From Acidobacteriota bacterium (GTDB lineage Bacteria > Acidobacteriota > Terriglobia > Acidiferrales > UBA7541): a stretch of 64,000 bases of DNA. The position numbers and the translations under genes were made by a program. The notes beneath the pieces were generated by a model. That model worked only from the letters and a program-made list of their open reading frames with translations. It made no database searches and was not told where the DNA came from. Numbering within the stretch: the stretch's first letter is position 1; each line of letters opens with the position of its first letter. Shown here in pieces: positions 57,838 through 62,797 of the stretch. Where the stretch lies: positions 1 to 64,000 of the forward strand of contig QHYZ01000078.1 of the NCBI GenBank assembly GCA_003225295.1, read 5' to 3'.

Positions 57838-57866
57838 TTGACAAGGCGAAGCACGCGGCTTATCAA
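57838..57866 (+). promoter_or_regulatory. Consensus-like sigma-70 promoter of the metal-transport operon
   Basis: Perfect TTGACA (57838-57843), 17-nt spacer, TATCAA (57861-57866). It begins 43 nt after the CYTH stop codon. Predicted start near 57873, about 320 nt before the first start codon. Confidence 0.65.
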
Positions 57867-57872
57867 TGCAAC

Positions 57873-58131
57873 TGTGACTGCGGAGCGGTCAGACCACGGA
57901 GTGATTTTCCTCTCAATGAGTGCGGGCAGCGAAGTCGAACCTGGCCCTGGTTGGGCCGGGCAGCAGGGGAGCCTGGAGTTGGTCCATCGGCTGAGTGTAG
58001 AGACGATATCGCGCGAGGCGCAAGCCACGGCGCGCGCGGTCGGATGGGGAGGGCTCACAGGCGGCTAAAGGTAAGTCCATTTGTGTGAGGTACTTGCCCG
58101 CGGCCGAGGTTCTTCGGTGTGCGGGTTTTTT
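57873..58131 (+). ncRNA. Leader RNA with terminator, candidate metal-responsive riboswitch or attenuator
   Basis: About 260 nt of non-coding transcript from the predicted start to the terminator. It contains a stable hairpin CTGGCCC/GGGCCGG near 57941-57959 and GC-rich pairing segments around 58010-58050. It ends in an intrinsic terminator 62 nt before the start codon of the MgtE-domain gene. Further on, CCTCC (58164-58168) can pair with the GGAGG of the ribosome-binding site (58180-58184), a second possible control point. I compared it by eye with the M-box (ykoK), ydaO and yybP-ykoY consensus elements and did not find their hallmark sequences. Class and ligand unknown. Confidence 0.5.
58097..58131 (+). 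terminator. Intrinsic terminator in the leader of the metal-transport operon
   Basis: CCCGC (58097-58101) pairs with GCGGG (58121-58125), with inner CCGA/TCGG pairing and wobble pairs between, followed by TTTTTTG. Position between promoter and start codon implies conditional read-through. Confidence 0.72.
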
Positions 58132-58192: not shown

Positions 58193-59434
58193 ATGGATCT
58201 CTACGCGACAGAATTGATGGGCTCGAAGACTTACGACGCGGCGGGGAATTATGTCGGGCGTGTGCGCGAATTCTTTATCGAGCCCGCGGAAGCACCCAAT
58301 CGGGTGTCGCATTACCTGCTATCGCGCGGGCACTTTCAACCGCTAGTCGCCAAACACAACCAGATTGCGTCGGTAGCAGCGGGGAAGATGGAGTTGAGTG
58401 TCAGTGAACGAGCCCTCGAGCTCTATCAGCCGAATGATTCATGGCTGGCGGTTCAGAAGGATTTGCTGGATCAACAGATCATTGATACCCGCGGGCGGAA
58501 AGTCGTGCGTGTTAATGACGTCGACCTGACCCCCTTCCGCACCAATGGCACCGTCGAACTGCGTCTGACGCAAGTCGATGTGGGGCTCCCGGGAGCCGTG
58601 CGGCGGCTGCTCCAGGGAGTGGTGCCTTCCAAGGTGGTGCGCAAACTGCAGAGCAAATTGCCTCAGCGCGCCATTCGCTGGGAGTTTGTGAACCTCGTCG
58701 AGCCTGACCCCATGCGCCGCGTGAAGCTGCGTATCACACACGAAAAACTTGAGGACCTGCACCCAGCGGACCTTGCGGAAATCATGGAAGATCTGTCCGC
58801 AGCGGAGCGGCAAGGGATTATCGCATCGCTGGATGAAGAGACCGCGGCTGCCGTTCTCGCCGAGCTGGACGAGCGGCTCACAACGCAAATTGTGGAAAAG
58901 CTAGATCCGGAGAAGGCCGCAGATATTCTGGAAGAAATGGCCCCGGACGCGGCGGCCGACCTTCTGGCGGACTTGTCCAGGGAAACTTCCGAAGAGCTTC
59001 TGGATGAGATGCCTGGCCAGGAAGCTGACGAGGTTCGCGAATTGCTGGAATTCGACCCCGCGACGGCCGGCGGCATGATGAACCCTGATTTCGCATTTGT
59101 AGGTGAGCGGACAACGCGGGAGGAAGTTCTGGAGTGGATGCGAGGACAGGAGTTGAACTTTGACCAACTGGACACCATCGTTCTGCTGGACAGTTCGGCG
59201 CAGTTTTCGGGTACCGTCCCTGTGGCGCGGCTCCTTCTGGCGGCCGCCGATCAACGCATGACCGAACTGAAGACCGAGCCCCTAATCAGCCTGCCTCCCG
59301 ACGCGGACGACAAGGAGGTCTTCGAGCTTTTCGACAAGTACAACCTGCGGATGCTGACCGTAATTGATAAAGAGAACCGACCGATTGGAGCCATCACCGT
59401 GGACGACGTGGTGTCGAGGCTGGTGAAGGAATAG
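58193..59434 (+). CDS. Soluble PRC-barrel/MgtE-N/CBS protein, putative magnesium sensor
   Basis: 413 aa, no membrane helix. Two PRC-barrel-like segments (about 1-75, MGSKTYDAAGNYVGRVREFF; about 90-145, DTRGRKVVRVNDVDL) are followed by an MgtE N-terminal superhelical domain (about 190-285, LHPADLAEIMEDLSAAERQG, EKAADILEEMAPDAAADLL). A CBS pair (about 287-413) starts at DPATAGGMMNPDFAFVGERT and ends KENRPIGAITVDDVVSRLV. In MgtE channels these last two units are the Mg-sensing gate of the pore; here the pore is absent. ATG 58193 has AGGAGG at 8 nt. The transporter gene follows after 21 nt, so this protein probably regulates it. Confidence 0.88.
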   Translation: MDLYATELMGSKTYDAAGNYVGRVREFFIEPAEAPNRVSHYLLSRGHFQPLVAKHNQIASVAAGKMELSVSERALELYQPNDSWLAVQKDLLDQQIIDTRGRKVVRVNDVDLTPFRTNGTVELRLTQVDVGLPGAVRRLLQGVVPSKVVRKLQSKLPQRAIRWEFVNLVEPDPMRRVKLRITHEKLEDLHPADLAEIMEDLSAAERQGIIASLDEETAAAVLAELDERLTTQIVEKLDPEKAADILEEMAPDAAADLLADLSRETSEELLDEMPGQEADEVRELLEFDPATAGGMMNPDFAFVGERTTREEVLEWMRGQELNFDQLDTIVLLDSSAQFSGTVPVARLLLAAADQRMTELKTEPLISLPPDADDKEVFELFDKYNLRMLTVIDKENRPIGAITVDDVVSRLVKE

Positions 59435-59455
59435 CAAGGGGTTTCGAGCCGAACG

Positions 59456-60778
59456 ATGAACTGGGACGCAATTTCGTCGAAGTTTGATCGCGTGAGGGCG
59501 GGCGACACGGATTTGCAGAAGAAAATCCGTGGGCTGCGCAGGCGTCTGACGCTGCTGTTGGCGGTGATAGGGCCGGGGCTGATCACCTCCAATGTGGACA
59601 ACGACGCGGGCGGAATTTCCGTCTATACGCAAGCAGGAGCGCAATACGGCTACGCTTTGCTCTGGTCGCTCATTCCGATGACCATCGCGTTGTACGTCAC
59701 GGAAGAGATGTGCGCGCGGATGGGCGTGGTGACCGGGAAAGGACTATCCGATCTGATTCGCGAGGAATTCGGGTTCCGGCCTACCTTTTTCGTAATGGTC
59801 ATGGGCTTTCTTGTGGACTTGGCCAACGTGGTGGCGGAGTTTGCTGGTGTGGCAGCATCCATGCAGATTTTTGGGATCAGCAAATATGTCGCCGTGCCTA
59901 TCGCCGCCATCGTCGTTTGGGCGTTAGTTATTCGAGGAACTTACCGCCAGGTGGAGGTGATCTTCCTCTTCGCTTGCATTCTGTATCTGTCCTACGTATT
60001 TTCCGCCATTCTGGCAAAGCCGGATTGGCTGATCGCCGCGAAACATACGGTGATTCCGAATCTTCGTCTCGATTCGGGCTATCTGCTCATGTTGACGGGA
60101 CTCGTCGGAACCACGATTGCTCCGTGGCAATTCTTTTATCTTCAGGCTGGATTTGTGGAAAAGAAAGTGGGGCCGCGGCAATATCGGCAGGCGCGCGCTG
60201 ACGTCCTCTTCGGCAGCATAAGCTGCATGGTGATCGTCTTCTTCATCATCGTTTGCACTGCAGCGACGCTCTACGCCTCCGGCCACCGGGACATCACCGA
60301 CGCCGCACAGGCAGCCCAGACGCTGATTCCGCTTGCCGGCAAAGGCGCCGGCAAGCTATTCGCTTTTGGTTTGCTCAACGCATCGCTCTTCGCCGCCTCC
60401 ATTTTGCCGCTTTCCACGGCGCATGTGATTTGCGAGGGGCTTGGCTTTGAAGCGGGACTCGACCATAAATTCAAAGAGGCCCCCATCTTCTACTGGCTCT
60501 ATACCATTCTGATCGTGGTCGGAGCCGGCGTCGTTCTGCTGCCCCATGCGCCGCTGTGGAAGATTTTGATCTTCTCGCAGGTGGGCAACGGGATATGGCT
60601 CCCCGTGGTGGTGATTTTTATTCTGCTGCTGGTAAACCGGCGCGACCTGATGGGCGAATACGTCAACACGGTGACCTTTAACATCGTCGCTTGGGTGACC
60701 GCGATCGTCATGATCGCCCTGACGGTAGTGCTTACCTACACGGAGCTGTTTCAGCAAAGCTTGCCGCCGCCATCCTGA
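59456..60778 (+). CDS. Nramp-superfamily transporter with altered metal site, putative Mg transporter
   Basis: 440 aa, about 11 membrane helices. The fold is Nramp (SLC11): GPGLITSNVDNDAGG in helix 1 and GTTIAPWQFFYLQ in helix 6. In classical manganese/iron Nramps helix 1 carries DPGN and helix 6 an MPH motif. Here these are DAGG (50-53) and A222-P-W-Q, so the metal-binding Asn and Met are lost while Asp is kept. Such changes are known in Nramp-related magnesium transporters (NRMT), which carry hydrated Mg. Coupling with the upstream MgtE-sensor protein supports magnesium. Substrate is inference. Confidence 0.87.
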   Translation: MNWDAISSKFDRVRAGDTDLQKKIRGLRRRLTLLLAVIGPGLITSNVDNDAGGISVYTQAGAQYGYALLWSLIPMTIALYVTEEMCARMGVVTGKGLSDLIREEFGFRPTFFVMVMGFLVDLANVVAEFAGVAASMQIFGISKYVAVPIAAIVVWALVIRGTYRQVEVIFLFACILYLSYVFSAILAKPDWLIAAKHTVIPNLRLDSGYLLMLTGLVGTTIAPWQFFYLQAGFVEKKVGPRQYRQARADVLFGSISCMVIVFFIIVCTAATLYASGHRDITDAAQAAQTLIPLAGKGAGKLFAFGLLNASLFAASILPLSTAHVICEGLGFEAGLDHKFKEAPIFYWLYTILIVVGAGVVLLPHAPLWKILIFSQVGNGIWLPVVVIFILLLVNRRDLMGEYVNTVTFNIVAWVTAIVMIALTVVLTYTELFQQSLPPPS

Positions 60779-60872: not shown

Positions 60873-61718
60873 GTGGCCCACAGCCCCACTCCCAAGACGC
60901 TGCAAGTCGCCACACCTGGTTCGCTCGGCCCGGTTACACCAGAAGAAGTGAGCCTGCTCGAGAAGCTGGACTTGGCGCGGCTGCCGAGGCACGTCGCCGT
61001 GATCATGGACGGCAATGGACGGTGGGCGCAGAAGCGGCGCCTTCCGCGAATCGCGGGGCACCGTTCGGGAACGCAATCGGCGCGCACGACCATCGAAACC
61101 TGCGCTCGTTTGAAGATCGAAGCCCTGACGCTTTATGCATTTTCCGTGGAAAACTGGCGACGGCCTAAGACGGAGATCGACTTCCTGATGGCGCTCCTAA
61201 GGGAATATCTTCGCAAAGAGATGCCGCTGATTCAGAAGAACAATATCCGGATGCGCTTCCTCGGGCGCATGGACGAGCTCCCTGCCGGCGTGCAGAACGA
61301 TGTACGGGACGCCATGGAAAAAACCGCGGGGAACCAGGGTATGGTGCTGTGCGTGGCGCTGAACTACGGGGGGCGCGCGGAGATCGTTGATGCCATGAAC
61401 GCCATTCTTTCCGAACGCAACGGCCACGGGACTTCCAACAAGATCACCGAGGAGCAGCTCTCGCGGCACTTGTACACCGAAGGCTTGCCGGACCCCGACC
61501 TGCTGATCCGCACCAGCGGCGAGATGCGCGTGAGCAATTTTCTGCTTTGGCAGATCGCCTACGCGGAGATTTTTGTCACCGAAACGCTCTGGCCGGATTT
61601 CAGCCGCGCGCGGTTGCTTGAGGCTTTGCTCGAATTTCAGAAGCGCGAGCGCCGGTACGGCGGCATCCGGGAGGGCCAGGCCTCCTCCGAGAAACCGGCA
61701 CGCGCGGCGGGTCATTAG
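60873..61718 (+). CDS. uppS: Isoprenyl transferase (undecaprenyl diphosphate synthase)
   Basis: 281 aa. Makes the C55 lipid carrier for cell-wall synthesis by cis-condensation of isopentenyl diphosphate. The catalytic Asp46 is in VAVIMDGNGRWAQKR; GHRSGTQSARTTIETC, LYAFSVENWRRPKTEI and DLLIRTSGEMRVSNFLLWQ complete the signature. GTG 60873 is the start; about 30 residues precede the core. First of uppS-cdsA-dxr. Confidence 0.95.
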   Translation: MAHSPTPKTLQVATPGSLGPVTPEEVSLLEKLDLARLPRHVAVIMDGNGRWAQKRRLPRIAGHRSGTQSARTTIETCARLKIEALTLYAFSVENWRRPKTEIDFLMALLREYLRKEMPLIQKNNIRMRFLGRMDELPAGVQNDVRDAMEKTAGNQGMVLCVALNYGGRAEIVDAMNAILSERNGHGTSNKITEEQLSRHLYTEGLPDPDLLIRTSGEMRVSNFLLWQIAYAEIFVTETLWPDFSRARLLEALLEFQKRERRYGGIREGQASSEKPARAAGH

Positions 61719-61921
61719 AATCGGTTTCCCTGCAAAATAGGCATCCACACGTTAAGTGAGTGAAACATTTGAGAATGAAATTGTTCGGGCATCCTCAGGA
61801 AATGCCTTCGAATGACACCTCCGCATTATCCCGGGCCAGGTAGGTCCTACTTCTCGTGAGTGATTTATTTCTCGCAATGTGATGAGATGAGGGCAGCGAT
61901 TGCTCAGGGGATTCCTTCTCT

Positions 61922-62797
61922 ATGACCTGGAAGCGGGTGGCCACGGCCGCGGTGCTGACTCCGTTTGCCGTGGGGCTAGCCTTGTGGAGCTCAACGGCAG
62001 TCCTGGCCCTGGCCTTGGCACTGGTGGTGATGATTGCGTTGTTTGAGTATTTCAGCTTGGGCGATGCCATTGGCCATCGCGCCTACCGCTATTGGACCGT
62101 TACTTGCGCATGGATTCTTATTTATGCGCAGTGGTGCGCGGCGATCGCGCCAGACTATGGACTCCCACGGGGGCTGACCATCCACCGCGAGCCATATTCC
62201 CTTTTTGAAATTTTCCCGACCGTACCGGGCGTACTTTTCTTGTTTGTACTTGGCATAGCAGTGCTGACGTTGTGGACCAAACGTCCACTAGTCGAAGCGC
62301 TACCCGCGGCTGGGATCAGCGCCAGCGGATTGATCCTCATTGCTTTTCCGTTGTCGTATGCTCTGCGTCTTCATGGATTGCGGGTGCAAGGCCGGCCTCT
62401 ACTGCTCTTCGCCCTGGTCATCACTTGGGTGGGGGATACCGCGGCATATTTCGTGGGCCGATCCATCGGCAAACACGCGTTAGCGCCGCGCCTGAGCCCC
62501 AAGAAAACGTGGGAGGGGACGGTCGCGAGTTTTCTCGGTGCACTGATCGTGGCGGTCATTTTTGCGCGCTTCATGACTGTGCCGCTGCCGCATTTGCTGG
62601 GGATGGCTGCAGTTGGCAACGTAGCGGGGCAAGTTGGCGACCTTCTCGAATCGGCGTACAAGCGCAGCTCGGGGATCAAGGATTCGGGGAGCCTGCTGCC
62701 GGGGCATGGGGGCGTGCTTGACCGAATCGACGCGCTTATCCTCGCCATTCCCGTTGTCTGGTATTATTGGATATTGGTCTACTCGCCTCGGTCGTGA
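61922..62797 (+). CDS. cdsA: Phosphatidate cytidylyltransferase
   Basis: 291 aa with about seven or eight membrane helices. Makes CDP-diacylglycerol for phospholipid synthesis. The diagnostic C-terminal block is present: GDTAAYFVGRSIGKHALAP, LSPKKTWEGTVASFLGALIV, GDLLESAYKRSSGIKDSGS and LLPGHGGVLDRIDALI with the metal-binding Asp. It lies 203 nt after uppS; the gap has no clear terminator and the ribosome-binding site is weak. Confidence 0.94.
   Translation: MTWKRVATAAVLTPFAVGLALWSSTAVLALALALVVMIALFEYFSLGDAIGHRAYRYWTVTCAWILIYAQWCAAIAPDYGLPRGLTIHREPYSLFEIFPTVPGVLFLFVLGIAVLTLWTKRPLVEALPAAGISASGLILIAFPLSYALRLHGLRVQGRPLLLFALVITWVGDTAAYFVGRSIGKHALAPRLSPKKTWEGTVASFLGALIVAVIFARFMTVPLPHLLGMAAVGNVAGQVGDLLESAYKRSSGIKDSGSLLPGHGGVLDRIDALILAIPVVWYYWILVYSPRS

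Follow-up and report, generated by a model that had tools for sequence, protein, structure and literature searches.

How does an acidobacterium take up magnesium when its genome matches none of the other Mg importer families searched, and how would this uptake be adjusted? The question is raised by a gene pair in a 64,000-nucleotide stretch of DNA from an Acidobacteriota bacterium (assembly GCA_003225295.1, contig QHYZ01000078.1, positions 1 to 64,000; hereafter the window), in which a soluble protein resembling the sensor part of MgtE is encoded ahead of a transporter of the NrmT type. We lean, with some reserve, towards the view that an acidobacterium of the gp2 / Candidatus Acidiferrum type relies mainly on this operon for Mg2+ uptake, its expression being set by a leader-peptide attenuator. 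The gene pair and the idea that its first member gates the second are already in print and not new. NrmT with an adjacent MgtE-N-like gene was first reported in 2014 by Shin et al., whose pairs include C. acetobutylicum Ca_c0685 and A. capsulatum Acp2976-Acp2977, and who offered feedback regulation of the pair as a speculation (PMC4072509). What appears to be new here is a conserved tiny gene ahead of the pair that resembles a translation-based switch.

Both open reading frames (ORFs) of the pair were confirmed on a common strand, and the 21 nt between the stop of the sensor gene and the start of the NrmT gene are an operon-like spacing. The second ORF is an Nramp (Pfam PF01566, E 2.7e-94). 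Among solved structures, the Mg transporter EleNRMT comes nearest (7qia, E 7.2e-100), while the best MntH gives 3.3e-37; by E values, NrmT is nearer to NRMT than to the MntH-type Nramps. In transmembrane helix 1 (TM1) the canonical Nramp motif DPGN is replaced by D50-A-G-G53, and in TM6 the canonical A/C-x-x-M by T219-T-I-A222, followed by P-W-Q. The NRMT signature is given as DxxG-TxxA/T in excerpts of PMC8806188, and NrmT carries it as DAGG and TTIA, the first TM6 residue being altered as well, to T. The first-pass annotation of the window had described an Nramp relative with DAGG in helix 1 and APWQ in helix 6 and likened it to the Mg transporters; the motifs and the proximity to 7qia bear this out as NRMT-type. 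EleNRMT resembles the window protein in full-length homology and in the DxxG-TxxA site (PMC8806188, in excerpt), whereas its TM6 reads APWM where the window NrmT has APWQ.

The chief argument for Mg2+ as the substrate is the absence of other importers, which suggests that NrmT imports this ion. A profile search of the window genome (8.1 Mb, 96% complete) matched neither CorA nor the MgtE pore, and the best MgtA-family match reached 57.9 bits, the cut-off being 610.75. The single MgtE_N match is the sensor, and a second Nramp on another contig (G000:C272:44604-45683, L002) is canonical, with DPGN/MPHN. Since no other importer family is matched and the canonical Nramp lies elsewhere, NrmT is left as the sole candidate from the Mg importer families searched. 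CorA was found in 0/36 genomes of the genus. In two of these genomes, G298 and G319, the sensor also matches a second protein, which is MgtE-like.

The transporter could instead be mainly a Mn2+ importer like Acp2977, with sensor and leader answering to Mn2+ or another signal. Indeed, when Acp2977 was placed in B. subtilis, it fully rescued a Mn-uptake defect and rescued a Mg-uptake defect at low millimolar Mg2+ only (PMC4072509), and a bound Mn2+ marks the EleNRMT site (PMC8806188, in excerpt). The genome, however, already holds a canonical Nramp, the binding site carries the NRMT signature, and Mg2+ must enter somehow although the other importer families gave no match. We consider the Mn2+ explanation rather unlikely.

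The association of the two proteins extends well beyond the window. We drew 297 genomes from the phylum; the transporter gave matches in 158 and the first protein in 243, many via ordinary MgtE. We defined the close NrmT clade by transporter matches with E < 1e-100, of which there are 70, spread over 69 genomes; the sensor was found in all 69. It lies directly upstream (<350 nt) of 28 of the 70 NrmT genes and directly downstream of 1; a gap of 0.7-1.3 kb separates the two in 10 cases and one of 1.7-7.3 kb in 11, while in 2 the sensor is far apart and in 18 on another contig, the assemblies being mostly drafts. Given this spread, the co-occurrence is independent of close linkage. Fourteen more genomes combine a PRC-bearing sensor with only a distant Nramp, and in 13 of them the order is reversed, transporter first. 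Among named GTDB loci fetched by the sensor (the best 80 of 543), an NrmT match follows downstream in 75; of the remaining five, two break off at the sensor or no more than 0.6 kb past it. The pair is thus conserved outside the window genome. At E values up to 0.001, and with phylogeny ignored in the statistics, the MgtE pore occurs in 11/69 NrmT genomes versus 164/228 others, and neither the MgtE pore nor CorA in 24/69 versus 18/228. An MgtA-class ATPase exceeds its cut-off in 5 of these 24 NrmT genomes, a cut-off also reached in 2/14 controls.

Some loci depart from the common layout. In several genomes of family f2 of the class, one gene sits between sensor and NrmT; in L036 (286-1338) and L040 (404-1486) it reads, by eye, as a glycosyltransferase-type protein. 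A tandem pair of NrmT copies is present at G257:C4:120178-122810, with the sensor 6-7 kb off. In L085 (G313) the sensor matches in two pieces, amino acids 1-264 and 302-412, with a gap of 52 nt where 37 codons are expected; either the assembly is at fault or the gene is broken. Acidobacterial-type sensor-NrmT loci also occur under the titles Betaproteobacteria (L101, sensor 79% identical) and Bacteroidetes (L158, 43% identical); these are probably mis-titled genome bins.

How, then, would the operon be controlled? An RNA leader had been proposed at first as a second level of control, and this proposal held in part: the leader is conserved together with a terminator, but it belongs to no known RNA class. 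Against Rfam it gave nothing at gathering scores and no M-box up to E 10; a snoRNA match at E 5.4 was taken as chance. In the 23 leaders of the genus that were aligned, a promoter-like hexamer pair, with TTGAC kept in 23/23, is followed by an open frame, a hairpin and an intrinsic terminator. The upstream ORF (uORF) opens in 23/23 loci at an aligned ATG, has 46-63 codons and closes just ahead of the hairpins, while the two alternative frames contain 62 stops (23/23 loci) and 27 stops (20/23 loci) over the same span. Its stop is TAA in 14 loci, TAG in 5 and TGA in 4, and is placed 29 nt from the terminator CCGC in 19/23 (23, 27, 30 and 30 nt in the others). Codon 8 is GAA, GAG or GAC, and codon 11 one of the four Pro codons, each in 22/23, while the middle is poorly conserved and varies in length without a frame break. 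Such a pattern would be expected if the peptide is translated and its end has to fall at a given position.

A covariance model of the 3' part of the leader, trained on 23 of the 33 genus genomes that it matched, finds one copy each in 33/36, and the sensor lies beside the match in 30/30 loci returned. The uORF is present in 8/8 loci outside the training set, from 10 new genomes (L201 was read by eye), and hence in 31/31 genus loci examined. The 31 peptides contain, all near the start, [ED]x[ED] in 30, [ED]x[ED]P in 29 and [ED]x[ED]PxP in 26 cases. Separately, the leader peptides of L107 and L110 begin MSYSLDQEPLPxRRAG, which looks close to the acidic-proline-arginine start of MgtL, probably through convergence or by chance. 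In a sister group of 21 loci with sensors 60-67% identical (L123 being counted in the genus of the window), 19 carry, ahead of the sensor, a candidate uORF that stops 45-61 nt short of the terminator T-run, by a permissive filter of at least 28 codons with [EDQ]P within the first 22. With a 40-65 nt window, the same filter retains 19/21 sister loci and none of 47 named loci that are more distant (a suitable T-run exists in only 7 of these, and some extend less than 700 nt upstream); diverged uORF forms would escape it. The motif was likewise found in 0/35 sensor loci outside genus and sister group, within 600 nt upstream. Two of the 47 distant loci, L171 and L172, show motif matches without a terminator. 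Towards the end of the sister uORF, R[EK]A[RK]PGL stands in 12/19, whereas the genus mostly ends in a VGWGGFTGG-like sequence.

Two helices compete in this region. The proposed antiterminator CGGCU/GGCCG extends a GGUAAGU/ACUUGCC hairpin; its CGGCU arm overlaps the uORF stop and its GGCCG arm is part of the 5' arm of the terminator. In the genus, 92.5% of cells pair in the antiterminator (at most 56.2% when slid) and 87.6% in the terminator (at most 45.5% when slid), figures that are biased in favour of the structures as these were derived from single members. Antiterminator covariation is 0.114, slid versions giving at most 0.046 and 2/500 shuffles reaching the value. The sister group has an equivalent helix, CCGGCC/GGCCGG, in which 88.6% of cells pair, with 6 double-sided cells (0/500 shuffles) and a covariation of 0.241 (0/500 shuffles; at most 0.145 slid); in its terminator 93.2% of cells pair. 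By a crude per-structure evaluation, in which the value for the L079 terminator is meaningless, antiterminator (-18.7 kcal/mol) and terminator (-19.1 kcal/mol) of the window are near balance. RNAalifold over the whole leader gave no convincing structure, and a long-range helix between the start region and the end of the uORF was dropped as mostly pyrimidine/purine-tract pairing without clear specificity. Since the end of a short ORF overlaps an antiterminator here and a terminator follows, the leader reads as an attenuator, its translation and regulation being predicted.

A metal riboswitch of a new RNA class, with the open frame incidental, would also explain a leader conserved with its terminator, and M-box riboswitches precede many Mg transporter genes, some nrmT among them (PMC4072509). 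Codon 6 is moreover GAA in 22/23 loci and codon 9 CCT in 23/23, so that part of the start motif could be held as RNA, the third base being nearly fixed. The Rfam search, however, yielded no more than the chance snoRNA, the place of the stop is nearly fixed while its identity varies, the middle changes in length with the frame intact, and the sister candidate has a different C-terminus. These points make a riboswitch quite improbable. An M-box is lacking in the window as it is in the A. capsulatum pair; the window has a uORF and terminator in its place.

The first protein of the pair was proposed at first to be an MgtE sensor module detached from its pore, and this description stands. Pfam finds MgtE_N (189-289, E 2.4e-26) and a single CBS match over cut-off (358-411), the CBS pair being seen by structure, and does not find the MgtE pore domain PF01769 in this ORF; the MgtE model TIGR00400 scores 114 bits, under its cut-off of 232.75. 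In the AlphaFold2 model (alignment of 24 sequences, mean pLDDT 83.3, pTM 0.51), the N-terminal half is rich in beta strands and is followed by a helical N domain and the CBS pair. As no helix of the model exceeds 11 residues, the protein has no membrane part; because of the low pTM, the arrangement of the domains is uncertain. PRC-barrel-like domains had been noted as well. The first is backed by Pfam barely above cut-off (3-33, 22.7 bits; cut-off 21.2), while the second comes from the model, in which strands 12-68 and 95-129 may be read as two PRC-like barrels. Foldseek ranks the MgtE cytosolic domain 2yvy first (E 1.5e-19), and N domain and CBS pair superpose on it; unlike MgtE, the sensor has no pore and no plug helix, has lost the D226 and D250 sites and has gained the N-terminal PRC-like part. 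A broken or truncated MgtE was rejected, as the protein is conserved, carries the extra N-terminal part and accompanies NrmT in 69/69 genomes.

Aligning 14 sensors with MgtE, with the residues as named in excerpts of PMC5882242, we find D at the equivalents of D95 in 14/14, D91 in 11/14 and D247 in 12/14, and an acidic residue at E59 in 9/14; the window sensor retains those matching D91, D95 and D247. The D226 equivalent is N in 14/14, that of D250 is non-acidic in 12/14 and acidic in 2/14, and the C-terminus of the window sensor falls where the MgtE plug helix would start. Mg2+ may thus be bound between N and CBS domains, while the lost sites and the end before the plug helix make a copy of the MgtE plug mechanism, and with it closure of a pore in MgtE fashion, unlikely. 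ATP remains a possible co-signal, since an ATP-binding role of the MgtE CBS domain has been published (PMC5529423, in excerpt). That the sensor gates the transporter, as the first-pass annotation went on to propose, is unsupported so far: in the one published partner test, co-expression of Acp2976 did not improve the Mg rescue by Acp2977 (PMC4072509). Among publications from 2015 on, no title or abstract start on NrmT with MgtE addressed the partner's function or this leader, subscription journals being mostly outside this search. The A. capsulatum pair is of the same type and order, sensor before transporter, as the one in the window, and A. capsulatum belongs to the same phylum.

The attenuated Mg2+ operon that we favour draws directly on gene content, conservation, a frame in a conserved place, the pairing potential of the hairpins and the lack of matches to other importers. 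From these we infer translation of the uORF, the substrate, the drop-off at low Mg2+, the direction of the switch and the action of the sensor on the transporter. In this scheme the NRMT-type Nramp would import Mg2+, and the MgtE-like sensor from the same transcript would report cytoplasmic Mg2+, possibly with ATP, and probably damp the transporter. With ample Mg2+, a ribosome would translate the 50-aa uORF to its stop and cover the 5' arm of the antiterminator; as the stop codon lies within this arm, the antiterminator would be blocked, the terminator would form and transcription would halt. At low Mg2+, the ribosome would tend to drop off at the acidic-proline stretch [ED]x[ED]PxP near the start, the antiterminator would form, and sensor and transporter would be transcribed.

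Mg-sensing attenuation is an analogy: such a start before a Mg-type transporter suggests an MgtL-like logic. According to excerpts of the published work, an EPDP close to the start of MgtL is destabilising and lets ribosomes drop off at low Mg2+, so that mgtA is transcribed (PMC11282234), and mgtB expression is raised by acidic residues in mgtQ, an effect put down to destabilised ribosomes (PMC8092293). Like the window leader, mgtL of enterobacterial mgtA and mgtQ of Salmonella mgtCBRU are short ORFs before a Mg importer, with acidic residues near the start and alternative mRNA structures. In contrast, both are unrelated in sequence and phylum; mgtL is Rho-dependent and mgtQ acts by translational control, where the window has a uORF of about 50 aa with an intrinsic terminator. 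Among the matches listed on magnesium and attenuation by leader peptides in acidobacteria (titles and abstract starts, subscription journals mostly outside), none was on this leader or on what the partner does.

The near-fixed distance from stop to terminator shows coupling to translation only, and an attenuator that responds to translation in general or to amino acids, with no specificity for Mg2+, would produce it equally. Yet no amino acid occurs in a run, just two Pro codons of the peptide are conserved, and the leader matches once per genome with the sensor adjoining in every locus returned; we regard this alternative as rather unlikely. The conserved ends of the peptide would also suit a stable small protein that binds transporter or sensor, and small proteins are known to regulate transporters. 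Its poorly conserved middle and the C-termini that differ between genus and sister group make this highly improbable.

Several observations, together with the A. capsulatum experiments and the near-invariant codons 6 and 9, weigh against a leader-controlled Mg2+ operon. The genome is 96% complete, and an absent importer gene could be missing sequence. CorA occurs at equal frequency in NrmT genomes (42/69) and in others (135/228). The residues of the Mg5 site of MgtE are not present in the sensor. Three of the 36 genus genomes, 73%, 84% and 95% complete (the last being G344), lack a leader match; the L064 peptide has K for the second acidic residue and that of L201 has S for P9. The sister core is N[SPL][ED]P or SS[ED]P in 13/19, mostly with one acidic residue before Pro, and so resembles MgtL less closely. 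In the genus antiterminator, double-sided changes occur in 2 pairs and in 1-3 pairs of slid versions, and covariation of the sister terminator is not beyond shuffles (119/500 reach the observed value). Finally, the outer antiterminator helix appears in 3/23 minimum-energy folds, is weak in L081 and L082 and is shifted in register in L068; as the folds mostly show the terminator, antitermination would need to be kinetic.

Table 1. Positions in the window of the gene pair, its leader and the sites discussed.
Feature	Position	Strand	Basis
Promoter-like TTGACA - 17 nt - TATCAA (putative)	57838..57866	+	consensus match
Upstream ORF, predicted 50 aa leader peptide, MSAGSEVEPGPG...AVGWGGLTGG, then stop	57916..58068	+	frame conservation in genus loci
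Proposed antiterminator CGGCU/GGCCG, enclosing the hairpin GGUAAGUCC...GG.ACUUGCC	58062..58106	+	pairing, covariation
Intrinsic terminator GCCCGC...GCGGG + TTTTTT	58096..58131	+	pairing in genus alignment
Soluble MgtE-like sensor, 413 aa (PRC-like barrels, MgtE_N, CBS pair)	58193..59434	+	ORF, Pfam, AlphaFold2, Foldseek
MgtE_N domain, aa 189-289 of sensor	58757..59059	+	Pfam
NrmT / NRMT-type Nramp transporter, 440 aa	59456..60778	+	ORF, Pfam, nearest solved structure
TM1 site DAGG (DxxG) of NrmT	59603..59614	+	sequence, alignment
TM6 site TTIA (TxxA) of NrmT	60110..60121	+	sequence, alignment

Downstream, the first ORF begins about 95 nt past the transporter, and the ORFs in 60873-62797 of the window are presumably those of undecaprenyl diphosphate synthase and phosphatidate cytidylyltransferase.

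In summary, these organisms seem to have no known kind of Mg importer other than NrmT. A bolder possibility, which we put forward tentatively and hold to be on balance doubtful, is that Acidobacteria evolved, apart from the enterobacteria, an acidic-proline drop-off leader for Mg2+ together with a detached MgtE sensor that restrains an Nramp importer, so that two unrelated Mg2+ sensors would serve one unrelated transporter. The operon provides a testable system for the role of the MgtE-like partner of NrmT, a question open since 2014. If drop-off sensing of Mg2+ did arise twice, ribosome instability at low Mg2+ would be a general bacterial signal and not an enterobacterial oddity.

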